Source: Lachnospiraceae bacterium (GTDB lineage: Bacteria > Bacillota > Clostridia > Lachnospirales > Lachnospiraceae). Taken from it: a DNA stretch of 32,411 nt. The notes below the pieces were generated by a model, which ran no database searches, had not been told where the DNA came from, and saw nothing but the letters and a program-made list of their open reading frames with translations. The stretch is taken from assembly GCA_024693925.1 (NCBI GenBank), contig JAILKH010000035.1:1-32411 (forward strand). The letters are read 5' to 3'. A program made the position numbers and the translations under genes. Of this stretch, positions 4,025-21,736 are shown piece by piece (the first letter of the stretch is position 1; each line of letters starts with the position of its first letter).

Positions 4025-4312
4025 CTACAGTCCTGCAAGCACTCCGCGCAGTTCGCTGTTATCTATCGTTGATATATAGAACTCGGGATTTCCGGTATAT
4101 GCCCACTGACTGCACAGCTTCTGCCAGTCAGCTGCTGAAAACGTACCTACATTACCTGTTTTATCGGTAAAAGTAACATTTCCGAATGCATCCTTAGTTA
4201 TCCATCCGTGCTGCCCCTCATATTTTTCCCTTTCATGATCATGATGGTGATGATGACCACCGCTTATCTCTTCCATCTGCTCATCATTAAGTTTTTTCTC
4301 TTTCTCGCTCAT
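4025..4312 (-). CDS. Small His-rich peptide with a double-glycine (RiPP/bacteriocin-type) leader
   Basis: The 95-residue product has an N-terminal segment ending LNDEQMEEISGG (residues 8-19). This matches the consensus of leaders cleaved after Gly-Gly by C39 peptidase/ABC exporters in class II bacteriocins and many RiPPs. Immediately after the predicted cleavage site are five consecutive histidines (20-24) plus His26, suggesting metal binding. The remaining putative core (76 residues) is Gly/Asn/Thr-rich and aromatic, with a single Cys67, so lanthionine or disulfide chemistry within one chain is unlikely. It has its own promoter (4367-4395), an AGGAGG site and a terminator (3896-3944), so it is an intact one-gene unit. 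No maturation enzyme, exporter or immunity gene is recognisable in the window. The leader call is well supported; the function is unknown. Confidence 0.7.
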   Translation of the reverse strand: MSEKEKKLNDEQMEEISGGHHHHHDHEREKYEGQHGWITKDAFGNVTFTDKTGNVGTFSAADWQKLCSQWAYTGNPEFYISTIDNSELRGVLAGL

Positions 4313-6938: not shown

Positions 6939-9137
6939 TTATACTGCTTCAAGTATTTCCACATAAGAAATAAAGTCCTGTCCGGTCGCCAAAGCCTTAG
7001 AACTGAGCTTTGCAAGCTTAAGTCCAAGATACATAAGCTCATCACCGTAGTATTCCTCACCCTTAAGTTTATATTTAACATCCTCCTTAAGACCTGCGAG
7101 CTTTATAAAACCGGGAAGCTGATTAACGTTGGATCTCATACAATAGAGACCGAATATGGCCTTTTTCCTGTCTTTTGATACAACCATCCATGCAGCCTGA
7201 TCGTTCTTATAAGGGGATCTTAGCCTGTAGAAGGTGCCAAACTGTAATAGTTCCCGGTTTTCTTTCATAAATATTATCTGTTTTTTTACCTCTTCAAATT
7301 CCTCATCGCTTATACGGTTAAGATCAAGCTCATATCCAAAAGTACCGAAGCATGCAACGTTCGCTCTGGTTGTTATTGATGTATTCCGCCCTGTCTGCTG
7401 GTTGGGAACAGCTGATACATGCGCTCCTATTGAAGAAATTGGATATCCGAACGAAGTCCCGTACTGTATCCTGATCCTGTCAATCGCATCCGTATTGTCC
7501 GAACACCAGGCCTGAGGAGCATAATAAAGCATTCCGGCATCATACCGGTTTCCTCCCGAAGAGCAGGACTCAAACAAAATATCCGGAAAATCGATCCTGA
7601 ACCTCTCATACAGCCCATAAACTCCCATAACATATTTATGGTAGACCATGCCCTGTTCATCAGCAGATAATTCCGTACTATAGACCTCAGTAAGAGATCT
7701 GTTCATATCCCATTTGATATAACTTATCGGTGCATTTTCAATTACCTTTTTCAGCATACCATAGATGTAGTCAACTACCTCTTCTCTTGAAAAATCAAGT
7801 ACAAGCTGATGTCTTCCAAGAGATGACTTTCTTCCCGGAGTAGCCAGGATCCATTCAGGATGCCTTCTGAACAGATTGCTGTCGGGATTTACCATTTCGG
7901 GCTCGATCCAGAATCCGAACTTCATGCCCAGGGCATTTACCTTTCTGGCAAGCCCTGCCATACCCTGAGGAAACTTATCCGGATTCTCTATCCAGTCTCC
8001 GAGGCCCGAATAATCATCATTTCTGTTTCCGAACCACCCATCATCAAGAACAAACAGTTCAACCCCTGCTTCTTTAGCCTTTTTTGCAATTTCAAGGATC
8101 CTGTCCTCATCAAAATCCATAAAGGTGGCTTCCCAATTGTTTAAAAGAATCGGCCGCGGAGTATTTTTCCATCTGCCTCTTACAAGATTATTGTTATACA
8201 GATCATGAAATGTCTGACTGAGATAATTAAGCCCCTCATCTGTAAAGGCAATAACAACCTCCGGAGTCTCAAAAGATTCTCCCTTTTTTAGCGGCCATGT
8301 AAACCTGTCCGGATTTATACCCATAAGAAGTCTCAGCCGGCCAAACGTATCACATTCAGCCTGTGCCAGGAAATTTCCGCTGTATACAAACGACATTCCC
8401 ATGGCTTCTCCGGAAAAATCATCAGTCTTTGGCCTTTTTACGATAACAAATGGATTTTGATTCGCACTTGATATTCCACGCTTACTTTCAATGGAAACCG
8501 AGCCTGCGGATAACTTCTTTACTTCAGGTACCCTCTCTCTTGCCCATGCACCTGAAAACTGCATCCATTCATAATCCTGATTGGGAAGATCAATACATAC
8601 GCTGAGTGCTCTTGTAAGCTTTGTTATCTCCGTTCCGTTGTTTGTAAACTTAACGTGTCGGGTTATTACGGGATATTTATCAAAAATGGTATAAATGAGC
8701 GTCAATGACATCCTGGCTGTTTCATCCTCGAGATAAATCTCAAGAGTCATTGCCTCGTTTACATCCGCATATGTGGCCGGAAGCCCTTTAAGCGCGTGCT
8801 TACCTTTAAATATCTTATGATCCCTGTAAACAAAAGCACTTACCCTCGATCCGTTTGCAAGCTCGATCTCATAGGCCTGTGTCCCAAAATCAGTAATACC
8901 GAACGAAGGGTATTCCTGACGGTTAAGCTCCATTGAATAGGATTCCGTGTCCGGATCGACAGCTACGTTTGGTAATCCGAACCTGTTTAAAACATATGAC
9001 ATATCTTCTTTGTCATGTATACGTTTTCCAAAGTATATACTTCCCAGATCTCCCAACGGGGTAATTCCCATGATATAGCTGATCTTATCGTTATACAAAT
9101 TATACTGTTTTGATTTACTGTGCCAGATTATGTCCAT
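6939..9137 (-). CDS. Alpha-galactosidase, glycoside hydrolase family 36
   Basis: This full-length enzyme of 732 residues hydrolyses terminal alpha-1,6-galactose from melibiose, raffinose and stachyose. GH36 architecture is complete: an N-terminal beta-supersandwich (about 1-330), a (beta/alpha)8 barrel (about 331-640) and a C-terminal beta domain. Diagnostic motifs are LLNNWEATFMDFDE, FVLDDGWFGNR, YIKWDMNRS with nucleophile Asp477, CSSGGNRYD and WCSDNTDA with acid/base Asp547. These positions match well-studied bacterial GH36 enzymes almost exactly. There is no signal peptide, so it acts in the cytoplasm on imported oligosaccharides. The ATG has an AAAGG site about 9 nt upstream. It is divergent from an AraC regulator, the usual arrangement for inducible alpha-galactoside loci. 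No transporter gene is in the window. Confidence 0.95.
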   Translation of the reverse strand: MDIIWHSKSKQYNLYNDKISYIMGITPLGDLGSIYFGKRIHDKEDMSYVLNRFGLPNVAVDPDTESYSMELNRQEYPSFGITDFGTQAYEIELANGSRVSAFVYRDHKIFKGKHALKGLPATYADVNEAMTLEIYLEDETARMSLTLIYTIFDKYPVITRHVKFTNNGTEITKLTRALSVCIDLPNQDYEWMQFSGAWARERVPEVKKLSAGSVSIESKRGISSANQNPFVIVKRPKTDDFSGEAMGMSFVYSGNFLAQAECDTFGRLRLLMGINPDRFTWPLKKGESFETPEVVIAFTDEGLNYLSQTFHDLYNNNLVRGRWKNTPRPILLNNWEATFMDFDEDRILEIAKKAKEAGVELFVLDDGWFGNRNDDYSGLGDWIENPDKFPQGMAGLARKVNALGMKFGFWIEPEMVNPDSNLFRRHPEWILATPGRKSSLGRHQLVLDFSREEVVDYIYGMLKKVIENAPISYIKWDMNRSLTEVYSTELSADEQGMVYHKYVMGVYGLYERFRIDFPDILFESCSSGGNRYDAGMLYYAPQAWCSDNTDAIDRIRIQYGTSFGYPISSIGAHVSAVPNQQTGRNTSITTRANVACFGTFGYELDLNRISDEEFEEVKKQIIFMKENRELLQFGTFYRLRSPYKNDQAAWMVVSKDRKKAIFGLYCMRSNVNQLPGFIKLAGLKEDVKYKLKGEEYYGDELMYLGLKLAKLSSKALATGQDFISYVEILEAV

Positions 9138-9164
9138 TCGTAAAACCTTTCAATTAAGATATAT

Positions 9165-9170
9165 TTTATA
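9165..9170 (-). promoter_or_regulatory. Candidate -10 of the alpha-galactosidase promoter (activator-dependent)
   Basis: TATAAA on the minus strand lies about 28 bp upstream of the ATG, with no -35 match 17 bp further up (CTGAGA). That pattern suits a promoter needing an AraC-type activator. Copies of TTTTGA-like half-sites at 9229-9234, 9244-9249 (inverted) and 9272-9277 are possible binding sites, but this is speculative. Confidence 0.3.
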
Positions 9171-9255
9171 TAATCGGTTCAGGGTAATCTCAGTATATTT
9201 CCGGAACTGATATATTTACATGGCATAATTTGATTTTTAGATGTCAAAATGCGAC

Positions 9256-9284
9256 TTGAACTTTGTCTTATTTTGATATATAAA
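9256..9284 (+). promoter_or_regulatory. Promoter of the AraC-family regulator gene
   Basis: TTGAAC (9256-9261) and TATAAA (9279-9284) are spaced by 17 bp. Transcription would start near 9291, directly at the AAAGGAGG ribosome binding site. This rules out the upstream in-frame ATG at 9249 and fixes the start at 9306. Confidence 0.7.
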
Positions 9285-9305
9285 ATGTGTAAAGGAGGAA
9301 TATCC

Positions 9306-10163
9306 ATGGCTTCTAAACTTGAGGGATGTGATTTTTGTAAATTTGTCAATTATGAGGATTCAGATGATTTCTATCTGTACGAGGTTGGAAGGTACAAGTG
9401 TGAACCTCTGTACTCATATGAACATTTCGTTAAAAACAGGATAATTCTTCATTTTATACTAAGGGGTAAAGGGATCATTCGATTAAATAACCGTCAATAC
9501 AATATACATGAACATCAGATATTCCTTATTCCCGATAATGTTAAAACCTTCTATCAGGCTGACAAAGATGACCCGTGGGAGTACATCTGGATACATATTG
9601 GCGGTCCGAAAATCCCACTTATTCTAAAAGAAGCCGGGTTAACCTCAGAACATCCCGTATATACTCCTCTGGATCACCATAAACAGATTGAGGATCTTGC
9701 AATGGATATTCTGAAGCATTATAAGAGACAGTATTACTGTGTCGGTACTTTGTATAAAATATGCGATTACATGATAGAGAATTCTTCCGCAAAAGAAGAA
9801 AAGAAGATGGATAATTCCCTTTTATATGTCAAAAATGTGATATCCTACATCCAGCTTAAATATTCCGAAGCTGTAAAGATTGATAATATTGCCCTTTCTT
9901 TGGGACTTAACAGAAGTTATCTGACACGTCTTTTTAAGGATGCCACAGGCTATTCCCTTCAGGATTATCTTCTTACATACAGGATGAAAATGGCTGTTAA
10001 GCTGCTGGCCGATGAATCCATAAGCGTAAACCGGGTAGCTTCAAGCGTAGGATATAATGATACTTTTACCTTCTCGAAGGCTTTCAAGCGGCATTTCGGT
10101 GAATCACCCTCCGATTACCGCAAATCCCACAAAAGCGGGGGTGTCACTCAGACCTATGACTAA
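9306..10163 (+). CDS. AraC-family transcriptional regulator, probable alpha-galactoside activator
   Basis: From the ATG at 9306 (AAAGGAGG 8 nt upstream) the product has 285 residues. The N-terminal half is an AraC cupin: HFILRGKGIIRLNNRQYNIH and DPWEYIWIHIGGP are typical of the sugar-sensing MsmR/RafR-like branch. The C-terminal 100 residues hold two HTH motifs (KIDNIALSLGLNRSYLTRLF and VNRVASSVGYNDTFTFSKAF) and end KRHFGESPSDYRKS. It is transcribed away from the GH36 gene across a 168-bp shared control region, which implies local activation of that gene by an alpha-galactoside or its product. Its stop overlaps the convergent glycosyltransferase stop by 4 nt. The specific ligand is inferred from context. 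Confidence 0.88.
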   Translation: MASKLEGCDFCKFVNYEDSDDFYLYEVGRYKCEPLYSYEHFVKNRIILHFILRGKGIIRLNNRQYNIHEHQIFLIPDNVKTFYQADKDDPWEYIWIHIGGPKIPLILKEAGLTSEHPVYTPLDHHKQIEDLAMDILKHYKRQYYCVGTLYKICDYMIENSSAKEEKKMDNSLLYVKNVISYIQLKYSEAVKIDNIALSLGLNRSYLTRLFKDATGYSLQDYLLTYRMKMAVKLLADESISVNRVASSVGYNDTFTFSKAFKRHFGESPSDYRKSHKSGGVTQTYD

Positions 10164-11104
10164 TCTGCTTTATTATCATCAAATTCATCTATTATAAATC
10201 TCTGTCTGCCCTTGACATCATCATATATCCTTGTTATATACTCACCCAGAAGACCTGATACAAAGATATTGAGCCCGCTCATAAACCAGATCAGGGCACT
10301 CAGACCTGACACTATTGTTTCTTTTTTCTTAAGTACTGCCTTCTGGAAGAAATATATACCTGAAAGCAGTGCCCCGAACGCCGTCATAAATCCACCGAGA
10401 AAGGTAATATATTCAAGGGGTTTGCTGGAAAAACAGAATATTCCGTGAAAACCCATCCTGAACTCACCCCAAAGGCGGTTATATTTGCTTACATCGGCCT
10501 CTCTTGCCTCTCTGTGATATCTGACTGCCGTCTGTTTAAATCCCACATAAGATACCATCCCACGGAAGAACATATTGGTTTCAGGCATCTTCCTTATTTC
10601 TTCTATGACCCGTCTGTTAATAAGCCTGAAATCCGCCGTATCAACCGGTATTTCCACATCCGACAGGAAATTGATCACTCTGTAGGCTGTAAGATCAATA
10701 AGTTTCCTTATTCTTGTTTCGCCCTGTCTGTCAATACGCTGGGCATAAACAACATCATATCCTTCCTGCCATTTCTCAACAAGCTCTGTAATAACCTCAG
10801 GCGGATCCTGAAGATCAACATCTATAACAACGCAGGCATCTCCGGTACAGTTAAGCACACCTGCCATGGTGGCAGCCGCCTGTCTGAACCTCCTGCTCAT
10901 CGTAATAAGCTTGATATGGTGGTTTTTCCTCATATTTTCCTTTATCACATCATAGGTCCTGTCGGTGGATGGATCAAGGCTGAATATGATCTCGTAATCA
11001 CATCCCAGCTCATCAACAACCTTAACCGTTCTTTCAAGAAACGGTTCTATTCCGTTCTCTTCATTGTATACAGGTACTACTATTGATAACTTGAAATCTG
11101 GCAT
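10160..11104 (-). CDS. Family 2 glycosyltransferase, GtrB/CsbB/DPM1-like
   Basis: Beginning at ATG 11104, with CCGGAGG 6 nt upstream, the product is 314 residues. A longer frame to 11215 adds 37 residues before the fold and lacks a ribosome site. The GT-A domain (about 1-225) starts KLSIVVPVYNEENG and holds VVIDVDLQDPPE, a DxD-type metal/nucleotide motif, and RRFRQAAATMAG. Two C-terminal membrane helices (around ITFLGGFMTAFGALLSGIYF and ALIWFMSGLNIFVSGLLGEY) are characteristic of enzymes that load a sugar onto undecaprenyl phosphate at the inner membrane face. The upstream YfhO-family gene on the same strand is the expected partner using the lipid-linked sugar. The sugar is unknown; no GtcA-type flippase is in the window. 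Confidence 0.85.
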   Translation of the reverse strand: MPDFKLSIVVPVYNEENGIEPFLERTVKVVDELGCDYEIIFSLDPSTDRTYDVIKENMRKNHHIKLITMSRRFRQAAATMAGVLNCTGDACVVIDVDLQDPPEVITELVEKWQEGYDVVYAQRIDRQGETRIRKLIDLTAYRVINFLSDVEIPVDTADFRLINRRVIEEIRKMPETNMFFRGMVSYVGFKQTAVRYHREAREADVSKYNRLWGEFRMGFHGIFCFSSKPLEYITFLGGFMTAFGALLSGIYFFQKAVLKKKETIVSGLSALIWFMSGLNIFVSGLLGEYITRIYDDVKGRQRFIIDEFDDNKAD

Positions 11105-11166
11105 TTTAACCTCCGGAAATCCTAATCCATGTATAAGGGATTTTTTCATCTCTTCCAAATAATAAA

Positions 11167-11191
11167 GAAGATACCGAATACCGATATCTTC
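11167..11191 (-). terminator. Weak intercistronic hairpin between YfhO and glycosyltransferase genes
   Basis: GAAGATA/TATCTTC (11167-11173 with 11185-11191) forms a 7-bp stem followed on the minus strand by TTTATTATTT. It lies between the YfhO stop and the glycosyltransferase start. It may be a partial terminator, attenuator or mRNA-stabilising stem that lowers expression of the second gene. Confidence 0.35.
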
Positions 11192-11216
11192 CTTATAATA
11201 GCACGCAATTAACAAA

Positions 11217-13946
11217 TCAACAAGAGAGAAGTGAACCGGAAGAGGTATCCGGTATCTTCTTTCTTTTTATGATCAGAATGATTAAAATTATAAGAAAGAT
11301 CATACTCACAGGTACACCTAATACAAAACCCTTAGGCATATATTTAAGCTCTATATCATGCTCTCCTTCAGATATATAAACTGCAAGCAGCCCATCCGCA
11401 GCTTTTTTGTTCTCCGCCTTATTTCCGTCTATAAGAACTGTCCACTCTTCTTCATAGGGAAAAGAAAATACCAAAAGCTTATCATTTTTGCCAGAATGAG
11501 TTATATTGACCTTTCCGGTCAGATGCGATGATGTTATTTTATTAAGCTCACATTTATCACGGGTTGCAGCTTCATACCAGTCTGCTATTGCCTGCTTGTC
11601 TTCATAATAGAACTCATTATTCAGAAGTGTTATTTTATCCTGCTCGGCATATATTCGTACCTTTACCTCTTCTCCTTCGGGAAAATGACCCAGCTCTCGC
11701 ACGCTCCAGCCATAGGTTGTAAAATATGGCTGCTTTTCGAGGTCATTTACTACGATCCTTGTTTCCTGAAGATCGTCTGCCGTGAAATACATGAAAATAA
11801 AATCATTCCTCTGATTTATAAAACTGTATTCTATGTACGCATCCTCAGAAGGGTCTGTAACTCTGTATGTATGCCCGTCTTTATCAAGATTAACAGTCTT
11901 AAATCCTACATTTTCAACACTTTTATATATATCCTCACCTGCATATCCCATACTTCTCGCAAGTGCATTCTGATAGGAAAAATGATCATATTTACCTGCA
12001 GAATTTATATTTGAACCTGTTCCGGTTCCGTCAGCAATATCTTCCTTATCATCATTGTCATCTTTGTTCAGCTTAAGAGAAAGACTGTTTTCATCCATGG
12101 TAAAGCATAATGGCATGGCATAAGGATTAAGAAAGATACTTTTATCATTATAATTGAAGAAAAGCGTATATGGTTTAGGAGTTTCATCATATTGGGAAAG
12201 AAGATATTTCATTCCCATAAAACAGTCAGCAAAGGTCGTACTTCCTTCCCCATAGAAAGCCCAGTTCCCATTATCCCTGAAACCCAGAGAACCAAGAAAA
12301 CGCATTGCCTGCTCCGTTTCACAGGATGAAAAATGCGACAGCCCGTTATATCCTATAAGCATAGGATCATTGTTACTCCGTCTGTACAGCTTATCTACCC
12401 TGAAAAACCCTTTATCTTCTCTGTCAATTGTCTCGATTATTGCTCCGGTCTCATCAACAAAATCCTTAAAAGCATCTATCGTAATGCTCTGATCCTCATT
12501 TTTTTCCGGAAAATATGCATTAAGGGAAACATAAGCATTATAAGAAGCATCGCATAATGCTACAACCAAAAAGACAGGCATGATATATTGCAGTATCAAT
12601 GGACTTCTTCTATGATCATTTCTTTTATTAATATTAAACAAGATGATGAGAAGAGATGTAAGAATTAGATATATACCTGTTATCATAATCTCTCTTATCC
12701 CTACGGTTTCGTTTTTAATAACACACATGTATATTGAATAAATAACATATATAATTAATGATATTATAATGCTCCTGTTCCTTATTTTTCCTATGTTTAT
12801 AAAGCTCTTATATGAAATAAATAACACCATGAAACTGAACAAAAATGAATTACGGTACGGAAACCCGATCGGATATGAGAATCCATGCCATGCTACGTTC
12901 AGTATATCAACATAGAATCCGAGAATAAGGAATACGAGGATTAACGCCGACAGGATTTTTTCCTTCTTCGTTATAAATCGGCTTAAATAGAAAAGCATTA
13001 AAAAGAGTAGAGCTATGGTTCCACAATATATGAGAGGAAGTCCGTCGGAAACATTTCCGTGGAAGGCTGTGGAGTACATGCCTGAGAAGATCTCTGTTAT
13101 ATTAAAGTTCCCCTTTAAGGAAAGAGGTATATGTTTACGGCTGCTCTGTCCCCTAAGGGATATTACAGCGCAGAACAGGCTGACAGCCGAAATAAAAACA
13201 CCGACTACAGATGTACCGATATAAATAAATAATGATCTGAGATGACCCTTTATATGCTTAACATCCCTAATTCCTTCGATATCATCGTTTTCGGTAAAAT
13301 ACAAATAAATAAAAAAACAGATTGAGAAGATACAGATCATATAACCTATATAGTAGCTTGAAAAAATCGACAGAGCCTGGGATATTATATAAAGGATGCT
13401 TACCCTCTCTGTCTTAACTATCCTGTATATGCCAAGCATAACAAGAGGAAGCATCATTATATTAAAGAAATACTGGACACAGTTAAAATACCCCATCAGA
13501 TAGCCCATAAATGCATAAGCTGTAGAAAAGATAAGAGTTGTATACCGGCTTCCGTATATTTCCGTCAGAAAGATATTAAACATAAGTCCGATAAAGCCGA
13601 TCATAACGATCATCATTATAAGAATGCCACCGGGAAGAAGATCGTTTGGAACAAAAAGAAGAAGCAAAAGAAACGGCGTATTGCAGTAATAAGCGGCAAG
13701 ACCTGCCATATCCCCGCCGAAAGTCTTTGAAAAGCTATAAAAATATGTATCATCCGAGAAGAATATTTTCTTCATATAGCCGAAATAGTCGACAAACTGA
13801 TATCTCATATCAGCCATAAGTATAGAGTATTTCCCGAATGGATAAAAACCGGATGCGATGCTTATAAATACCATAAGCACTACCGGAATAAGAAATGCAA
13901 ATAAAGGACACAGTATCCTTCTTTTCCCGTATAAAAAGTCAAACAT
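11217..13946 (-). CDS. YfhO-family membrane glycosyltransferase-like protein
   Basis: The 909-residue protein has about a dozen hydrophobic helices from the N-terminus to about residue 470. An extracellular region of roughly 400 residues follows, with one last helix near the C-terminus (FVLGVPVSMIFLIILIILII) and a lysine-rich tail. Near the N-terminus YFGYMKKIFF and FSKTFGGDMAGLAAYY match the YfhO pattern, and EEEWTVLIDGNKAE lies in the C-terminal beta domain. In Bacillus subtilis YfhO is a GT-C-like enzyme that transfers a sugar from a CsbB-made undecaprenyl-phosphate carrier to lipoteichoic acid. The CsbB-like gene directly downstream supports the same two-step scheme here. The acceptor polymer and sugar are not determinable. 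The promoter is at 14022-14050. Confidence 0.82.
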   Translation of the reverse strand: MFDFLYGKRRILCPLFAFLIPVVLMVFISIASGFYPFGKYSILMADMRYQFVDYFGYMKKIFFSDDTYFYSFSKTFGGDMAGLAAYYCNTPFLLLLLFVPNDLLPGGILIMMIVMIGFIGLMFNIFLTEIYGSRYTTLIFSTAYAFMGYLMGYFNCVQYFFNIMMLPLVMLGIYRIVKTERVSILYIISQALSIFSSYYIGYMICIFSICFFIYLYFTENDDIEGIRDVKHIKGHLRSLFIYIGTSVVGVFISAVSLFCAVISLRGQSSRKHIPLSLKGNFNITEIFSGMYSTAFHGNVSDGLPLIYCGTIALLFLMLFYLSRFITKKEKILSALILVFLILGFYVDILNVAWHGFSYPIGFPYRNSFLFSFMVLFISYKSFINIGKIRNRSIIISLIIYVIYSIYMCVIKNETVGIREIMITGIYLILTSLLIILFNINKRNDHRRSPLILQYIMPVFLVVALCDASYNAYVSLNAYFPEKNEDQSITIDAFKDFVDETGAIIETIDREDKGFFRVDKLYRRSNNDPMLIGYNGLSHFSSCETEQAMRFLGSLGFRDNGNWAFYGEGSTTFADCFMGMKYLLSQYDETPKPYTLFFNYNDKSIFLNPYAMPLCFTMDENSLSLKLNKDDNDDKEDIADGTGTGSNINSAGKYDHFSYQNALARSMGYAGEDIYKSVENVGFKTVNLDKDGHTYRVTDPSEDAYIEYSFINQRNDFIFMYFTADDLQETRIVVNDLEKQPYFTTYGWSVRELGHFPEGEEVKVRIYAEQDKITLLNNEFYYEDKQAIADWYEAATRDKCELNKITSSHLTGKVNITHSGKNDKLLVFSFPYEEEWTVLIDGNKAENKKAADGLLAVYISEGEHDIELKYMPKGFVLGVPVSMIFLIILIILIIKRKKIPDTSSGSLLSC

Positions 13947-14058: not shown

Positions 14059-14088
14059 TTGACATACCCCTTCCATAAACACTATAAT
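14059..14088 (+). promoter_or_regulatory. Promoter of the MBOAT-SGNH-rubrerythrin operon
   Basis: TTGACA (14059-14064) and TATAAT (14083-14088), both perfect consensus hexamers, are spaced by 18 bp, about 30 bp upstream of the MBOAT ATG. Its -35 is only 8 bp from the -35 of the divergent YfhO promoter. Confidence 0.8.
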
Positions 14089-14119: not shown

Positions 14120-15547
14120 ATGAGCCTTATTTCTGTAAGCTTTTTCATTTTCATATGTATACTGCTGATCATCTATTATAAGGTAAAACCCGGGAATCAG
14201 TGGAAGGTTCTGCTTATCGGCAGCCTAGTCTTTTATGCATGGGTAAGACCTGTATACATAGTATTTATTCTTATTTCAATTATAAGTACTTTTTACCTTA
14301 TGCGTAATCCCGTGAGATCACACTGGATCCTTACACTTATAATAAATCTTGGTATACTTATTGTATTCAGATACAGCATATATTTTGATGTTCATTCACT
14401 CATAGTTCCTTTGGGCATTTCCTTTTATACATTTATGACTCTTGGTTATGCTCACGATTGTATGGGGAAGAAAATAGAACCTGAAACAAATATCTTTCAT
14501 TACGCACTGTTTATTTCATATTTTCCGCAGATAACACAGGGACCTATCGGTACTTATAAGGATATGAAGGATCAGCTCATTTCTCCTCATGAGTGCAATA
14601 TCATCAATATTAAAGAAGGTGGTTACCGCTGTATAAAAGGACTGTTTAAGAAATTGGTCATTGCGGGAAGGCTTACCTATTATGTTGATACCGTATTTTC
14701 TTCACCAAATAATTATAACGGGCTTACCCTGATAATAGCAGTATTCTTCTATGCCATAGAGCTCTATGCCGATTTCTCGGGCTATATGGATATTGTCTGC
14801 GGAATTTCTAGAATGCTTGGGATCACTCTTACCGAGAACTTCAAACGTCCTTATTTCTCAAGGAATATTCAGGAATACTGGAGACGATGGCATATTTCAC
14901 TTAATGAATGGTTTAAGGAACATCTTATGCTTCCTGCGGTTACCTCCGGATGGAACAGGAAGCTCTCAAAAATGCTTGGTAAACTGTTCCCTAAAGCAAA
15001 GAAGGGAACCCTCAGAACCGTATTTCCTCTTATCCTTGTGTGGATAATAACCGGTATATGGCATGGAGCCGAGGATGTATATATCGGCTGGGGTGTCTAT
15101 TTTGCAATAATAATGCTCTTCTCAGTGTGTACAATGAATTATATGAAGAAGCTTCGTACAAAGATACACTGGAATGATGATAATATCTTCATCAGGATAT
15201 TTCAGACCTTACGAACATTTATAATAGTCCTTTTCGGAGAAGTTATGTTCCGTGCCCACAGCCTGTCGGACGCTTTTTCAATATACAAAAAAATATTTAC
15301 CACAACAAGAATCAGTGTTTCGGAAATCACATCCTCCCTGACCGCATTCGGAAACGGTAATCAGGCCTTGGCATCAGTGATCATTCTTACAGTGCTTATT
15401 TTGGGATTATTTATTGTTGAGCTTCTTAAGGAAAAAGATGAGAATTCATTTATGAGTCACAGATATATCTACGCGGCAGGAATGCTCATTGTTATGACAC
15501 TGTTTGGAGTGGCTGGGCAGTCGAACTTCATGTATCAGGCATTTTAA
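14120..15547 (+). CDS. MBOAT-family O-acyltransferase (AlgI/DltB-like)
   Basis: The 475-residue polytopic protein is of typical MBOAT length. It holds the family signatures: PLGISFYTFMTLGY, ISYFPQITQGPIG, ELYADFSGYMDI, FSRNIQEYWRRWHISLNEWF, and the invariant catalytic histidine in TGIWHGAED (His315). Such proteins move acyl groups across the membrane to extracellular polysaccharides or teichoic acids: acetyl for AlgI/PatA, D-alanyl for DltB. The ATG has a GAGG site and a consensus promoter. The next gene, 30 nt downstream, encodes a membrane-anchored SGNH protein, the usual transfer partner in AlgI-AlgJ/X, PatA-PatB and DltB-DltD pairs. The acyl donor is unknown; acetyl is the default guess, and an aminoacyl-ACP made by the enzymes at 18.5-21.6 kb is a more speculative one. 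Confidence 0.9.
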   Translation: MSLISVSFFIFICILLIIYYKVKPGNQWKVLLIGSLVFYAWVRPVYIVFILISIISTFYLMRNPVRSHWILTLIINLGILIVFRYSIYFDVHSLIVPLGISFYTFMTLGYAHDCMGKKIEPETNIFHYALFISYFPQITQGPIGTYKDMKDQLISPHECNIINIKEGGYRCIKGLFKKLVIAGRLTYYVDTVFSSPNNYNGLTLIIAVFFYAIELYADFSGYMDIVCGISRMLGITLTENFKRPYFSRNIQEYWRRWHISLNEWFKEHLMLPAVTSGWNRKLSKMLGKLFPKAKKGTLRTVFPLILVWIITGIWHGAEDVYIGWGVYFAIIMLFSVCTMNYMKKLRTKIHWNDDNIFIRIFQTLRTFIIVLFGEVMFRAHSLSDAFSIYKKIFTTTRISVSEITSSLTAFGNGNQALASVIILTVLILGLFIVELLKEKDENSFMSHRYIYAAGMLIVMTLFGVAGQSNFMYQAF

Positions 15548-15577: not shown

Positions 15578-16504
15578 ATGAAAAAAACAGTTTTAACTCT
15601 TCTGTCAGCCGCTGTAATAATCCTTACGGCGGTAATACTTAAAAATGTATATTCCTGTGAGATTCCGATAGGAAACAGAGGTATCAGGGCTGCGATCAAA
15701 GAAGGAGACCTTGATATTCTCTTTATAGGATCTTCGACCTTCCGCTCCAATCTTGATATCCATGAGCTGGATAAGGCATATAACGGGCGGGACTTCATTA
15801 TATCCTATGGTGGCAATCAATATACTGCCACATCCGTGCAATATGATGAAATTCGGAAACGTTCTTCTAATGATTACGGTCTTATGGTATTTGAACTGGA
15901 TCCGCTTATGCTCACAGAAGAGGTCAAGCTGTCCGATTCCAGAGTAATCTGGGATCTGTCCTTTGCCGGGAAAAAAGCTCTATGGAATAAGCTTAAAACA
16001 GGAGGAATCACCAATAAATCCATAATGTTTGAATATTTCGTTACATCGGGAATGGATGATCTTATTACATATCCTCTTACGGAACCCTTCTATTCAACGA
16101 GATATTATAAGGGAGCAAAAACAGACGATACACCTTCCTCCGGCAAAGAATTTCTGGAAAATGAAGAATTTGATATAAGTGAATCGGTTCTCATAAAAGC
16201 CCAGGAGGAATCTGTTATTGAAATAATCGAAAAATGCAGGAGAGACAGTCAGGACTTTGTTTTTCTTGAATGTCCGCATTATTACAGACTTTCCGAAGAC
16301 CCTGTTTATAAGGAATATCATAGATACTTTACTGATCTTATGGTAAAATATAACGTAGATTACATCCTTGCCGGAGATATTGACTTTGACGATCACAATC
16401 CGGATTATTATGAGGATATGAGCCATATGTCAGGCTTGGGAAGGAAAACCTATACAGAAGAACTTATCAAATATTTACTCAAAACAGGAAAGGAGACAAA
16501 ATGA
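15578..16504 (+). CDS. Membrane-anchored SGNH/DltD-like transferase or esterase
   Basis: The 308-residue product has an N-terminal signal anchor (about residues 4-24), so the catalytic domain faces outward. Block I of the SGNH fold is [14 protein letters not shown] with Ser52-Ser53 in the nucleophile turn. A C-terminal [17 protein letters not shown] segment carries the Asp-x-x-His pair and the following helix, as in DltD and AlgX/J-like proteins. LVMFELDPL-like and [10 protein letters not shown] strands fit the central sheet. Its position directly after the MBOAT gene indicates that it takes the acyl group delivered across the membrane and passes it to the glycopolymer, or trims it. The start at 15578 has a weak upstream site (GAAAGTAAAAG). 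Assignment to SGNH is good; the exact subfamily is not certain. Confidence 0.72.
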
Positions 16505-17108: not shown

Positions 17109-17309
17109 TCAGTCTTCAATATTCAGTTCTAACGGTGCATCTATTTCTTCACCGACATATTTACCGTTTTTCTTTCTCTGCTTTACACATTCCGTAAGCA
17201 GATACTCAATTTGCCCGTTAACAGAACGAAAATCATCCTCAGCCCATGCGGCCACGGCATCATATAATTTCGCTGACAGACGAAGCGGAACCTGTTTTTT
17301 TTCTGCCAT
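17109..17309 (-). CDS. Small ribbon-helix-helix (Arc-like) DNA-binding protein
   Basis: The 66-residue product has a beta strand PLRLSAKLYDAVAAW followed by two helices ending GQIEYLLTECVKQRKK, the layout of Arc/MetJ-type ribbon-helix-helix domains that bind DNA as dimers through the paired strands. An acidic C-terminal tail follows (EEIDAPLELNIED). Its ATG shares a base with the stop of the SPFH gene (TAATG), so the two are translationally coupled. No toxin gene is adjacent, which argues against a standard toxin-antitoxin antitoxin. A palindrome over the operon promoter is a possible autoregulatory target. Confidence 0.75.
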   Translation of the reverse strand: MAEKKQVPLRLSAKLYDAVAAWAEDDFRSVNGQIEYLLTECVKQRKKNGKYVGEEIDAPLELNIED

Positions 17310-18325
17310 TAATACAGACTTCCCGAATTTACAACAGGCTGTGCATCGTGGTTACCGCATAATACCACTAACAGATTGGAAACCATGGCTGCCTTTCTCT
17401 CTTCGTCGAGATTGACTATTTCCTTCTCATTAAGTCTTTCAAGCGCCATCTCCACCATTCCTACGGCTCCATCAACTATCATCTTACGTGCGTCTATGAT
17501 TGCGGAAGCCTGTTGCCTCTGAAGCATTACAGATGCGATCTCAGGTGCATATGCAAGATATGTGATCCTGGCTTCTATTATCTCAAGTCCGGCATCCGTA
17601 ACCTTACTCTGGATCTCATTCTTGATCCTTTCGGCAACTACCTCTGCAGAACCACGAAGAGATCCTTCATCAGCCTGTCCGTCTCCGGTAGTATCTACAT
17701 CCGTAGCAACATCATAAGGGTAGATCCTTACAATATTCCTGAGAGCCGAATCACACTGAAGGGAAAGATATTCCTTATAATTATCAACATTAAACACTGC
17801 CTTTGCAGTATCTGTTACCTTCCATATAACTGCTATACCGATCTCTACCGGATTTCCGAGACAGTCATTTATCTTCTGTCTTCCGTTATTTAAGGTCATT
17901 GCTTTAAGGGATATTTTCTTACTGTATACATTTACGTTTCCCGTTGTACCTGTATTGATGGTAACCGTATCCGCCTTTGCAGCTGTTTCACCGCTCTGTG
18001 CAAGTCTTGTGCCTGCTGCCGGATTAACAGCTGTACAGAAAGGATTTACAAAATAAAAGCCGGGCTCCTTTATCGATCCCTTATAATTTCCAAACAGGGT
18101 AAGCACTAAAGCCTCCTGCGGCTTAAGAACCTTAAGACCTAAAAGCGGCACCCAACCGAATATAAAGATCATTATCCCGACAAAAACAAAGAATCCGCCG
18201 ATACCACTGTACTCTGAAAGCACTCCGCCTACAATACACAGAAAAAATGCAAATACATAAGCAAGCAATACACCGATCAGAACTATCATTCCGTGTTTCT
18301 TTTCAGTATAAATTTTTTCTGACAT
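17309..18325 (-). CDS. SPFH/band 7 domain membrane protein
   Basis: The 338-residue protein has two N-terminal membrane helices (about 14-35 and 40-62). An SPFH domain (about 68-250) follows, including [30 protein letters not shown] and [24 protein letters not shown] helical C-terminal region ends in [27 protein letters not shown]. Stomatin/flotillin-like proteins of this class oligomerise at the membrane and scaffold or regulate other membrane proteins. A partner NfeD-type protein is absent; the coupled gene is instead a ribbon-helix-helix protein. The ATG has AGGAGG 8 nt upstream, and the promoter region lies at 18401-18428. Confidence 0.9.
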
Positions 18326-18486: not shown

Positions 18487-18708
18487 CTATTTAAGACGCT
18501 GTATCATCTCATATATTGACTTTGCGCTGTTAAAGTTATCGGGAATAATCTCTGTTGCGGGAACAGCCACATCATACTCTTCATCTATTACACTGATAAT
18601 ATTGATTATATCAAAGGAACTTAATATCTTTCCGTCGATAAGATCGGTACAGTTTTCAAAATCAACATCGTCTCTTATATCCTTAAGTAATTCCATTAAT
18701 TCTTCCAT
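18487..18708 (-). CDS. Acyl/peptidyl carrier protein (DltC-like)
   Basis: From ATG 18708 (AGAGGTGG site) the product is 73 residues, a minimal carrier domain. The phosphopantetheine attachment site is DGKILSSFDIINI with Ser31; SSFDI takes the place of the more usual DSFDI/DSL. Helix 4 is INNFNSAKS-like (PDNFNSAKSIYEMIQRL). The longer frame to 18756 adds 16 residues that do not belong to the fold. As the last gene of the adenylation-decarboxylase-carrier cassette, it is the likely acceptor of the activated (and perhaps decarboxylated) amino acid. It is too small and divergent to be the fatty-acid AcpP. No phosphopantetheinyl transferase is nearby. Confidence 0.82.
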   Translation of the reverse strand: MEELMELLKDIRDDVDFENCTDLIDGKILSSFDIINIISVIDEEYDVAVPATEIIPDNFNSAKSIYEMIQRLK

Positions 18709-18784
18709 TTTCCACCTCTCTTTTTTATAAATACTTATTGTAAGTAATAAGATCAACCGGCTGTGACATTTATTTTCACAATGG

Positions 18785-20005
18785 TCAAGAATTTAATTTC
18801 CATGTCTTTACGGCATCTCTTACCTTAGATATTATACCATTACTGTGTATTAAAACAACAGGCATATCCCTGCTTAAGAAAAGATTGAGTCCCTCTGTTA
18901 TTGAATATGCACCGATATTGCAAAACACAATTATATCACCGACTGACAGTATTCTTTCTTTATAGCTTCTTACGATAATGTCATTTGTAGTACATAAAGA
19001 CCCGCATAAAGTCTGGGTTATATCTTGTTTATCCATGTTATTTAATTGTTGTACAGATGTGTTATTTAATATGTTTTCTATATTATTATCAAGTGTTATC
19101 ATAACTGGTGTTTTCATTCCCATCATTTGACCGAGATAATTGATATGATTTATTCCTCCATCAAGTATACACCATCTGTTGTCGAAGGATTCCTTTACAT
19201 CACATACCCTTGAAATATAATATCCGCAGCTGCTGGCTATAAAACGTCCCATCTCAACTGTAAGATTACCATATCCCGCCATTTTGTTAAGATCGGCGCT
19301 AAGCTCCTTTACAGGTCGAAGAGTATCTGTGAAATCCTCACCTTCAAAATATGGATATGCAAAACCGGGACCATATTCTATCCACTTAAGCGGCAGACCG
19401 TATTTAGTCCGAAGATCATTAATAATCTCAGTAAGCATTGCCAGCTCTTCACGCTGATGCTTAAGCTTAGTCCTCTGAGTTCCCGCAAAGTAATGAATCC
19501 CTTCTATATCTATAAGGGTATTATCTCTGTTAATATCAAGTATATGTTCAATATCATTAACGGACATGCCAAACTGGCTTTTTGATGAAAGTCTTAAGAT
19601 AATTCCTACATTCCGGCCGAACTTTTTCGAAACCTGTTTTATAAGTTCATAATGTCTTATCGATTCAGCAGTTATGATACCGGCCCCATAGGTTATGGCA
19701 TCCTCTATATCCTCTGCCTCCTTATGGACTCCCGAATAGATTATCATCCCGGGTTTAACATTATAAGATTTACATATCTGAAGCTCTCCGGGAGAACATA
19801 CTTCAAGCATATCCACAATATCCGTAATCAGAGGTATAAGGAACGGATTGGCCTTTATAGAATAACACAGGCCGATCCTTTCATTTCCACTGTTAAGGAT
19901 ATTTCTTATCTTATTTACCCTGTCCTTTAATTCATCGGCATCAAACACAAAAACCGGTGTACCGAATTCTTCAGATACATTTTTAAATAAATCTGTTTTA
20001 ATCAT
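18785..20005 (-). CDS. Fold-type III PLP-dependent amino acid decarboxylase (LysA/exosortase-cassette type)
   Basis: The start ATG 20005 (GAGGG site) gives 406 residues. An alanine-racemase-like barrel carries the PLP lysine in CYSIKANPF (Lys51), GIHYFAGTQ in place of the usual HxHxGSQ, and EMGRFIASSCGYY for the phosphate-binding EPGR loop. The C-terminal beta domain has LCGSLCTTNDII with the catalytic Cys pair region and CNIGAYS. These mark the ornithine/diaminopimelate decarboxylase family rather than alanine racemase. Its place between an adenylation enzyme and a carrier protein repeats the order seen in exosortase-A associated clusters, where a decarboxylase of this family accompanies an AMP ligase and an ACP. 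It could act on a free or carrier-bound amino acid; the substrate is unknown. A housekeeping diaminopimelate decarboxylase role is less likely given the neighbours. Confidence 0.82.
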   Translation of the reverse strand: MIKTDLFKNVSEEFGTPVFVFDADELKDRVNKIRNILNSGNERIGLCYSIKANPFLIPLITDIVDMLEVCSPGELQICKSYNVKPGMIIYSGVHKEAEDIEDAITYGAGIITAESIRHYELIKQVSKKFGRNVGIILRLSSKSQFGMSVNDIEHILDINRDNTLIDIEGIHYFAGTQRTKLKHQREELAMLTEIINDLRTKYGLPLKWIEYGPGFAYPYFEGEDFTDTLRPVKELSADLNKMAGYGNLTVEMGRFIASSCGYYISRVCDVKESFDNRWCILDGGINHINYLGQMMGMKTPVMITLDNNIENILNNTSVQQLNNMDKQDITQTLCGSLCTTNDIIVRSYKERILSVGDIIVFCNIGAYSITEGLNLFLSRDMPVVLIHSNGIISKVRDAVKTWKLNS

Positions 20006-20031
20006 TTTTCCCTCATTATCATACAAACGTG

Positions 20032-21576
20032 TTATTTAATTTGCTGTTCAAGAATACCTCTGTCTATCTTTCCATTCTTATTAAGAGGAAAATCTTCAAG
20101 CTTTATAGTCTTTGACGGAAGCATGAACGGCGGAAGCTTTTCTTTAATGCACAAAGAAAGGTTTTCTTTATCAATATCTCCGGTGTAGAAGAGAATTATC
20201 TTCTTATGCTTACTGTCATATATGCTGCATGCTCTCGATACGCCGTCAACCGACATGGCAGAAACATCAATATCAGATAACTCTATCCTCTGTCCCATAT
20301 GCTTTATCTGAAAATCCTTCCTCGATGTATAAAATAACATCCCTGTATCATCATATTTTCCAAGATCTCCCGTACGGTATATAGTTTCTGCAAACCTGTT
20401 ATTTAATGGGTTCTGAACAAATACCTTTGAGGTTTTTTCAGGCTCTCTGTAATATCCAAGAGCAAGACAGGAACCGCTTACGCATATCTCTCCTTCTATT
20501 CCGTGTGTTATTATTTCCTTATCTTCGTCATCAAGCAGAAATACTTTTTCATTTCTGAAAGGAATTCCAATGGGAATTATTTCATCTTTTTCATATTCTC
20601 TGTCAATTATATGATACGTACAGTTACAGGTTATCTCTGTAGGACCATACAGATTGACATACATGGCATCCGGAAGATATTTTTTCCACTTATTCAGCTG
20701 TTTAACAGGCATAAGCTCACCTGAAAACATGACTTTCTTTATGGTTTCCGGCGTCTTATACTCAAGTCCGTTCATTATCGAGACAAAACACATTGCCGAT
20801 ACTGCCCAGATAAGCACCGTAACCCTGTTATCATACAGATAATCCATTAAAACGGAAGGGTTTGAGAAATACTCTCTTGGAATTAGTGCCACTCTGGCTC
20901 CAGTTTTAAGTCCGCTGTAAATATCTTTAACCGAAACATCGAAATCAAACGGTGCCTGATTGGCCAATACATCTTCATCTGTAATAGTAAATACGGATGT
21001 AAATTCATTAATGAATTCTATAACCGAAGCATGCCCTACCACAACTCCTTTTGGCACTCCGGTGCTTCCGCTTGTAAAATTCACATAAAGCGGCATCTTA
21101 TCATAAAAATCCTTACGTATTCCGGCTAAGAATTCTTCATCAGCCTTCTTATTTTTTGCTTCCTTTAACAGATCTTCTATTAAAACTATACCTTTTCTAT
21201 TCTTATCCGATAAAGATAGATCGTTAAGTATACTGTAATTAATTTCATCTGTTATAATAAATTCCGGATCAAGTACCGATATAATGCTCTCAGCCCTGTT
21301 TTTTGTCTGTCTTATATCAATAAAACTGTAGAAATCTCCCAGATACATTCCCGCAAACATCACTATCAGTGCATCTACGCTTTTTTCCATATAAAAAGTC
21401 ATGGCTGATTCAGGCTTTAAACAATCTCTTCCTTTAATATACGCAAGTTGAGTTGCTGTTTTCTTAGCCATATCAAGCAGATCTTTAAAGGATATTTCTT
21501 TATATGGATCCGAATAAGCTGTCTTATCACCATATACTTCTGCCGATTTTTCCAGCATTTCAATTATATTTATCAT
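20032..21576 (-). CDS. DltA-like amino acid adenylation (AMP-binding) enzyme
   Basis: The stand-alone 514-residue adenylating enzyme activates a carboxylate as acyl-AMP and loads it on a carrier thiol. Core motifs run in order: LYVNFTSGSTGVPKG (A3), NQAPFDFDVSVKDIYSGL (A4), NLYGPTEIT (A5), YRTGDLGKYDD (A7), FQIKHMGQRIEL (A8) and LNKNGKIDR with the catalytic lysine (A10). The Asp of A4 (FDFDVS) normally binds the substrate alpha-amino group, so an amino acid is expected. The NQAPF...DIY segment resembles D-alanine ligase DltA more than acyl-CoA synthetases. It is the first gene of the cassette, 26 nt before the decarboxylase. Its start lies 25 nt after the tRNA-Ser terminator, with no clear own promoter. 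Confidence 0.88.
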   Translation of the reverse strand: MINIIEMLEKSAEVYGDKTAYSDPYKEISFKDLLDMAKKTATQLAYIKGRDCLKPESAMTFYMEKSVDALIVMFAGMYLGDFYSFIDIRQTKNRAESIISVLDPEFIITDEINYSILNDLSLSDKNRKGIVLIEDLLKEAKNKKADEEFLAGIRKDFYDKMPLYVNFTSGSTGVPKGVVVGHASVIEFINEFTSVFTITDEDVLANQAPFDFDVSVKDIYSGLKTGARVALIPREYFSNPSVLMDYLYDNRVTVLIWAVSAMCFVSIMNGLEYKTPETIKKVMFSGELMPVKQLNKWKKYLPDAMYVNLYGPTEITCNCTYHIIDREYEKDEIIPIGIPFRNEKVFLLDDEDKEIITHGIEGEICVSGSCLALGYYREPEKTSKVFVQNPLNNRFAETIYRTGDLGKYDDTGMLFYTSRKDFQIKHMGQRIELSDIDVSAMSVDGVSRACSIYDSKHKKIILFYTGDIDKENLSLCIKEKLPPFMLPSKTIKLEDFPLNKNGKIDRGILEQQIK

Positions 21577-21643: not shown

Positions 21644-21649
21644 CTTTAC

Positions 21650-21736
21650 GGAGAAAGAGGGATTTGAACCCTCGCGCCGGTTTCCCGACCTACACCCTTA
21701 GCAGGGGCGCCTCTTCAGCCTCTTGAGTATTTCTCC
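21650..21736 (-). tRNA. tRNA-Ser (GCU anticodon)
   Basis: On the minus strand the acceptor ends GGAGAAA and TTTCTCC pair perfectly over 87 nt. The anticodon loop CTGCTAA gives GCU (codons AGC/AGU) and is closed by CGCCC/GGGTG. There is a long variable arm, as in all serine tRNAs, and a GGTTCAAATCC T-loop. The CCA end is not encoded. A consensus promoter lies 23 bp upstream and a terminator directly after it. Confidence 0.97.

Follow-up and report, generated by a model that had tools for sequence, protein, structure and literature searches.

The stretch of DNA analysed here (the window; all 32,411 nucleotides of contig JAILKH010000035.1, Lachnospiraceae bacterium assembly GCA_024693925.1) carries a five-gene cluster that resembles the Dlt system for teichoic-acid D-alanylation and has an amino acid decarboxylase built in. 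We favour, with some confidence, a Dlt-type envelope-aminoacylation system with a decarboxylase step before transfer, which would turn an acidic amino acid into a beta-alanyl or gamma-aminobutyryl (GABA) ester. Many gut and rumen Lachnospiraceae probably carry such a surface-decorating system with an added amino-acid-trimming enzyme. Among the matches listed by literature searches aimed at such a system, which covered titles and the beginnings of abstracts and few subscription journals, there was no description of it.

The window equals contig C44 of draft genome G000 (3.05 Mb, 201 contigs, 98% complete). Contiguous on its minus strand, with short gaps between them, lie genes for a DltA-like stand-alone amino-acid adenylation enzyme (ADEN, 514 aa, 20032–21576), a BtrK-like pyridoxal phosphate (PLP) decarboxylase of alanine-racemase fold (DEC, 406 aa, 18785–20005) and a DltC-like carrier (ACP, 73 aa, 18487–18708). 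The DEC reading frame opens at TTG 20026 and that of ACP extends to 18756; ribosome-binding sites point to ATG 20005 (behind GAGGG) and ATG 18708 as the likely starts. On the plus strand, 2–4.4 kb from the trio, a DltB-like membrane-bound O-acyltransferase with the C-terminus FMYQAF (MBOAT, 14120–15547) and a DltD-like membrane-anchored SGNH protein (15578–16504) are encoded. The initial annotation had recognised the trio of DltA-like enzyme, LysA-fold decarboxylase and 73-aa carrier, which family models and reading frames bear out, as well as the low-GC host (38% GC across the window). It was wrong in placing no transferase next to them. The observation is more significant than was stated there, and its interpretation half right.

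Linkage and distribution of the five genes

Neighbourhoods were read within 6 kb of DEC using profile hidden Markov models (HMMs) built in this analysis. The locus set comprised 99 DEC loci scoring above 350 bits, with related genomes and both copies of G000 counted. ADEN was found at 97/99 loci and ACP at 90/99, so that the trio is conserved together in relatives, a point on which the initial annotation had made its reading depend. MBOAT was present at 83/99 and the DltD-like gene at 82/99; all five occurred together at 75/99, in 12 gene orders or orientations. That the gene content stays constant while the order is shuffled argues strongly for a single system. A later subset of the 99, fetched after the HMMs were fixed (40 of 50 new genomes from a larger family draw, ten weaker matches being left out), contained ADEN and ACP at 40/40 each, MBOAT and the DltD-like gene at 36/40 each, and the complete set at 36/40. 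Outside the 99 were kept L313 and L314 (added later, both with the complete set), L035 and L119 (both the contig C119 of G000, which has no DEC), L140 (the L133 match again, from the named record), and L071, L134, L138, L222, L223 and L224 (decarboxylases below 350 bits).

Chance neighbourhood of MBOAT was rejected: the probability of one lying within 6 kb is near 0.09 by our own estimate from one genome, against 83/99 seen. The estimate is based on 20 MBOAT matches in 3.05 Mb, and the loci are related, so that a binomial value overstates the case. The 20 DltB/MBOAT-type matches of G000, two of them at contig ends, suggest extensive envelope or exopolysaccharide acylation in this organism.

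DEC relatives were detected in 36/150 sampled genomes of the family (one, G108, turned out BtrK-like) and, with a different query and a larger draw, in 87/397 Lachnospiraceae genomes. They were rarer beyond the family, with 9/291 in the class and 7/398 in the phylum, three of the 7 being weak. Close relatives among named records, from a single-sequence contig search, were two Lachnospiraceae metagenome-assembled genomes, RUI156 and RUI534, which we read from their isolate names as being of rumen origin. G000 itself carries a second complete five-gene cluster on a 6.2 kb contig (L034, G000:C83, 1–6172), where MBOAT-DltD-like and ACP-DEC-ADEN are directly convergent.

The decarboxylase is separate from LysA

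DEC matched Orn_Arg_deC_N (7e-17) and, as its best NCBIfam model, TIGR03099 (168 bits, cut-off 478). The LysA model TIGR01048 gave 162 bits for DEC in one search and 155 and 144 bits in another, against a cut-off of 298. Both decarboxylase domains and the loop Cys are kept. In a tree of 88 rows, 54 DEC and 28 LysA rows split as two groups with support 100/100; BtrK fell on the DEC side with support of 94/71, which is not strong, and the tree tool gave a long-branch warning. Among the 54 DEC-clade rows, 48 have Thr at catalytic-loop residue 346, five have Ser and one has Arg; 28/30 LysA rows of the genus have Glu there, the remaining two showing a gap and an Ala. The loop Thr after the catalytic Cys is common to the window DEC and BtrK.

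The best PDB structures for a DEC profile were BtrK 2J66 and 7RU7 (212 bits), followed by 6KNH (179 bits; titled probable diaminopimelate decarboxylase, and presumably the siderophore enzyme SbnH) and further diaminopimelate decarboxylases at no more than 173 bits. With the window DEC alone, BtrK led by a small margin (97 vs 90 bits). These computations show DEC to be distinct from LysA and, among solved structures, closest to BtrK.

A separate LysA-like match of at least 250 bits was present in 30/37 genomes of the genus (12 over the cut-off), and 15 of the 30 also carry DEC. LysA identity of DEC was therefore rejected, on the low score, the lost loop Glu, the separate clade and these 15 genomes. 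The initial annotation had considered that DEC might be the only diaminopimelate decarboxylase of its genome. This holds for the G000 draft insofar as none of its genes exceeds the lysA cut-off, but not for the genus, where both genes coexist. Most genus members have a lysA-like gene, unlike G000, for which lysine auxotrophy, a divergent enzyme or an assembly gap are possible.

Pocket code of the adenylation enzyme

ADEN matched AMP-binding (1.2e-55), AA-adenyl (287 bits) and DltA models (263–269 bits), all NCBIfam scores lying below their cut-offs. Its AlphaFold model (pLDDT 89) has the fold of an adenylation (A) domain. Structural matches of the model were given no weight, as the top VIA matches, including engineered TycA variants, tie with ordinary A domains.

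Ten pocket positions were assigned by motif in GrsA numbering, the mapping being our own. The window code is DVKWMSLCNK, and D[VI]KW.S.CNK was shared by 49/52 DEC-linked ADENs of the first set and 36/39 of the later set (rows of fitting length; fragments excluded, a single short one in the later set). The commonest code at loci without DEC is DAKWAGLGMK. For loci without DEC, 41 rows were used, L118 and 40 further places; at least four more places were left out (two fragments, G071:C63, and one within a 3586-aa reading frame of G054).

The D-Ala pocket of B. cereus DltA is formed with L198 and C269 (PMC11253843); our motif alignment places Val214 and Ser285 of ADEN there. According to a review, the positions of GrsA A236/A301 are occupied by F231/S299 in VinN, an enzyme that loads 3-methylaspartate in the manner of a beta-amino acid, and evolved beta-Phe TycA variants always carried A236V (PMC11253843). 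By our mapping the DEC-linked code has V236 and S301 at these positions, which agrees with a beta-amino-acid-like pose, short of proof. The positions of VinN K330/R331 are Cys/Asn in DEC-linked ADENs.

Carrier and transfer proteins

ACP gave no Pfam match and a weak DltC match (25 bits, cut-off 68). Its Ser31, the presumed phosphopantetheine serine, is identical in 91/91 aligned ACPs of DEC loci.

MBOAT scored 149 bits on TIGR04091 (cut-off 375), and a profile of 26 rows matched only DltB in the PDB at E ≤0.001 (139 bits). His258 and His315 are invariant in 26/26 aligned rows and correspond, by our reading of the motifs RWH and WHG, to the active-site residues His289 and His336 of DltB (PMC11035591). 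Counted from the C-terminus, the fourth residue of MBOAT is a Tyr in 82/83 proteins at DEC loci and 30/32 at DEC-less loci, and the strict form FxYxxF in 45/83 and 26/32, respectively; the pattern matches the DltX C-terminus FLYFGF (PMC11035591). Because the motif is equally common without DEC, it supports a Dlt mechanism, not decarboxylation. No separate dltX gene was noticed, no search having been aimed at one; the acyl-relay Tyr would here be fused to MBOAT rather than reside on DltX. A relay role of this Tyr between DltB and DltD was reportedly proposed by Schultz et al. in 2023.

Ser53 and His283 of the DltD-like protein are invariant in 26/26 rows. It had no Pfam match, and its profile found no DltD in the PDB by sequence, only few mixed matches at E 0.008–1.5. 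DltD was the top Foldseek match of the SGNH model (E 1.2e-4), with other SGNH folds tying in Z.

Proposed pathway, product and acceptor

From these genes we infer a substrate, decarboxylation on the carrier, a product, an order of transfer and an acceptor. ADEN would adenylate an acidic amino acid at its side-chain carboxyl, with L-Asp favoured and L-Glu possible, and load the residue onto the phosphopantetheine of ACP. In a side-chain-carboxyl thioester the alpha-carboxyl remains free, which is a requirement of PLP chemistry. DEC would then strip this alpha-carboxyl from the tethered residue to give beta-alanyl-ACP or GABA-ACP. MBOAT would move the acyl group across the membrane, probably via the C-terminal Tyr, and the DltD-like protein would hand it on to a glycopolymer outside the cell, forming an ester whose terminal amine is free. 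As the MBOAT/DltD-like pair is the usual partner of DEC, the acyl group is most likely destined for the cell surface. Our best reading agrees with the suggestion of the initial annotation that a decarboxylated aminoacyl thioester is produced for transfer, with beta-alanine a good candidate; what does not hold is that the transferase is missing.

There is precedent for decarboxylation on a carrier. BtrK converts Glu-S-BtrI to GABA-S-BtrI (PMC7857480), VinO decarboxylates 3-MeAsp-VinL once the thioester has formed, as it must (PMC11284099), and BolO/BolC/BolN are proposed to do likewise with carrier-bound Asp (PMC7756342).

A hint of a beta-alanine product came from L067 (G101:C12, 7238–13300), where panB, panC, coaBC, ADEN and DEC follow on one strand (panC named by Pfam, panB and coaBC from sequence). 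The ADEN and coaBC reading frames overlap by 8 bases, and the ADEN code is DVKWMSLCNK. No ACP was seen nearby; in G101 (93% complete) panC is present and no panD was found. Possibly ADEN-DEC acts there as an alternative beta-alanine source for coenzyme A (CoA). Among 60 genomes tested (55 with DEC), panC was found in 12 and panD in 10. Two, G101 and G002, have panC without panD, and the pan region of G002 (L312) contains neither DEC nor ADEN. We lean slightly towards beta-alanine from aspartate as the product; GABA is a more doubtful candidate, and any other product would be rather unlikely.

As to the acceptor, a GT2 glycosyltransferase (10160–11215, minus strand; PgfS-like, 229 bits, cut-off 500), which we take to be CsbB-like, and its presumed partner, a YfhO-family GT-C glycosyltransferase by family models (11217–13946, minus strand), form a pair (10160–13946) next to the MBOAT gene, both in the window and in the genus relatives L124 and L127. 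The csbB-yfhO pair of B. subtilis is responsible for the glycosylation of lipoteichoic acid (PMC5836110). A teichoic-type polymer is thus a plausible acceptor by analogy with this pair, which is a neighbour outside the five-gene set and only suggests a common polymer.

The chances are even that Lachnospiraceae produce beta-alanine (or GABA) from aspartate (or glutamate) on a dedicated carrier and attach it as an ester to a glycopolymer of the envelope. If so, this would be a second chemistry of teichoic-acid-type aminoacylation, with the decarboxylase in about one fifth of sampled Lachnospiraceae species (87/397) and with variant branches in which formylation replaces decarboxylation or a surface transglutaminase is fused on. 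The textbook means of adjusting surface charge and resistance to antimicrobial peptides in Gram-positive bacteria is D-alanylation; an ester of a beta- or gamma-amino acid would mean a higher amine pKa and a different ester stability. A widespread second version presenting such residues would change surface chemistry and could alter the gut host's perception of these bacteria. It would also provide a testable function for a decarboxylase whose nearest neighbour by family models is diaminopimelate decarboxylase, and a concrete analogy for the exosortase-associated trio, whose product has yet to be defined.

Weighing of alternative explanations

Several observations weigh against the favoured pathway. 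In the window, 2 kb and opposite strands separate the trio from the MBOAT/DltD-like pair. MBOAT is missing within 6 kb at 16/99 DEC loci; five of these are close to a stretch end (L039, L045, L063, L069, L123), and 11 are flanked on either side by more than 5 kb of sequence (L036, L049, L052, L059, L067, L131, L221, L274, L288, L296, L301). A purA gene, named from sequence, lies beside L036, L049, L221, L296 and L301. The DltD likeness is structural only, at 12% identity and with other SGNH folds equal in Z. Other codes occur in 3/52 and 3/39 DEC-linked ADENs, and D[VI]KW.S.CNK is also found in 7/41 ADENs where no DEC was detected, two of them with a formyltransferase in its place, so that the code does not require decarboxylation. 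Another of the seven, L204, lies on a contig of only 3.5 kb, and its genome carries DEC elsewhere. The beta-alanine hint comes from one genome, 93% complete, with no ACP nearby. Finally, G002 is without both panD and DEC, so that a missing panD alone proves nothing, and panD is present in 9/10 DEC genomes having panC.

Part of this would suit a scheme in which DEC works on the free amino acid, ADEN activates free beta-alanine or GABA, and the Dlt-like part esterifies the product. At the seven DEC-less loci with the code, another source could supply a beta- or gamma-amino acid; the ADEN-DEC pair of L067 lies within a pantothenate operon with no ACP nearby; and IdnL3, in a related pathway, decarboxylates free beta-glutamate (PMC11284099). 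We nevertheless consider this scheme unlikely: BtrK, the closest solved relative, and VinO act on the carrier, a mutant in the BtrK-like bolN was not rescued by beta-alanine (PMC7756342), and a free-acting DEC would have no need to be tightly linked to ADEN, yet ADEN accompanies it at 97/99 loci.

There is little to recommend an ordinary D-alanine Dlt system in which DEC is an accessory, for instance a racemase-like D-alanine supply. DltA/B/C/D homology, the alanine-racemase fold and the existence of clusters without DEC (L118 and many other stretches) would fit it. DEC, however, keeps both decarboxylase domains and the loop Cys, Ser and Val replace DltA C269 and L198 by our mapping, and the DEC-linked code differs from the DAKWAGLGMK that is commonest in DEC-less clusters. 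Equally little credence is given to a trio that makes a soluble metabolite, either beta-alanine for CoA or a secondary metabolite, with MBOAT and DltD-like genes merely common neighbours. Such a role is suggested by L067 and by the 11 MBOAT-less loci, but is difficult to reconcile with MBOAT at 83/99 and DltD-like genes at 82/99 loci through 12 gene orders; moreover, 45/55 DEC genomes tested have no panC, so that CoA supply cannot be the general purpose. That DEC is a diaminopimelate decarboxylase serving lysine biosynthesis beside ordinary D-alanylation is most improbable despite its LysA-family fold and the lack of another lysA over the cut-off in the G000 draft, given 155 bits against a cut-off of 298, Thr for the loop Glu, the separate clade, 15 genus genomes with both genes and a second DEC copy in the second such cluster of its own genome.

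Comparison with known systems

With the Dlt pathway the cluster shares an adenylation enzyme, a small carrier, a DltB-like MBOAT with both His and the DltX-like C-terminal Tyr motif, here fused to MBOAT, and probably, by structural likeness, a DltD-like SGNH protein. It differs in its built-in PLP decarboxylase, in the absence of the D-Ala pocket residues from ADEN and in scores under the Dlt equivalog cut-offs. The butirosin system BtrI/BtrJ/BtrK likewise has a BtrK-like decarboxylase and a stand-alone carrier; the ligase here, which is DltA-like, may set it apart, and the product seems envelope-bound rather than destined for an aminoglycoside. VinN/VinL/VinO (vicenistatin) and BolO/BolC/BolN (bolagladins) also combine a stand-alone A enzyme, a carrier and a PLP decarboxylase, which acts (for Bol, is proposed to act) on (methyl)Asp loaded by the beta-carboxyl. 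V236/S301 here recall the bulky F231/S299 of VinN, whereas VinN K330/R331 are C and N, and both systems feed polyketide synthase/nonribosomal peptide synthetase lines.

The likeness to the exosortase-associated trio drawn in the initial annotation is upheld for the enzyme families of the pair TIGR03098/TIGR03099, the latter being the best NCBIfam match of DEC. The trio here is a distant analogue only, with scores far below both cut-offs (157/592 and 168/478 bits) and an MBOAT/DltD context.

Variant clusters and neighbouring features

In L186 (4422–6827) and L196 (2–2678) a formyltransferase (PF00551) replaces DEC beside an ADEN with the same pocket code, which makes an N-formyl-aminoacyl variant of the Dlt-like cluster possible. 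DEC is fused to a long C-terminal part in L043 (5713–9057) and L294 (5741–8560), with different ADEN codes; that of L043 contains Ig-like and transglutaminase domains by Pfam, and that of L294 looks alike. L044, L056, L303 and L307 have the ADEN code IARWCSQASK, without the amino-binding Asp, still beside DEC. The decarboxylase of L071 (G108, region 8373–12696) groups with BtrK (100/96) and is accompanied by two carrier-like open reading frames and an adenylating enzyme, in a separate cluster that is perhaps for a secondary metabolite.

A 12/12 consensus match to a sigma-70-type promoter precedes the MBOAT-DltD-like pair (14059–14088, plus strand); 35 promoter-like sites were observed in the region against 30.8 expected in shuffles. 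A tRNA-Ser(gct) gene with its own promoter match (21649–21736, minus strand) lies directly upstream of ADEN and is context outside the system. Between the two halves of the window cluster (17109–18325), a small RHH-domain protein and an SPFH/Band 7 protein are encoded; the SPFH gene is also present between the halves in L135 (91% identical), and not in L124, L127 or L034. Finally, a 95-aa open reading frame (4025–4312, minus strand), for which Pfam and NCBIfam gave nothing at 1e-3, has a leader of double-glycine-like type (EQMEEISGG) and, after it, a stretch rich in His and Asp; it is perhaps a secreted peptide precursor.

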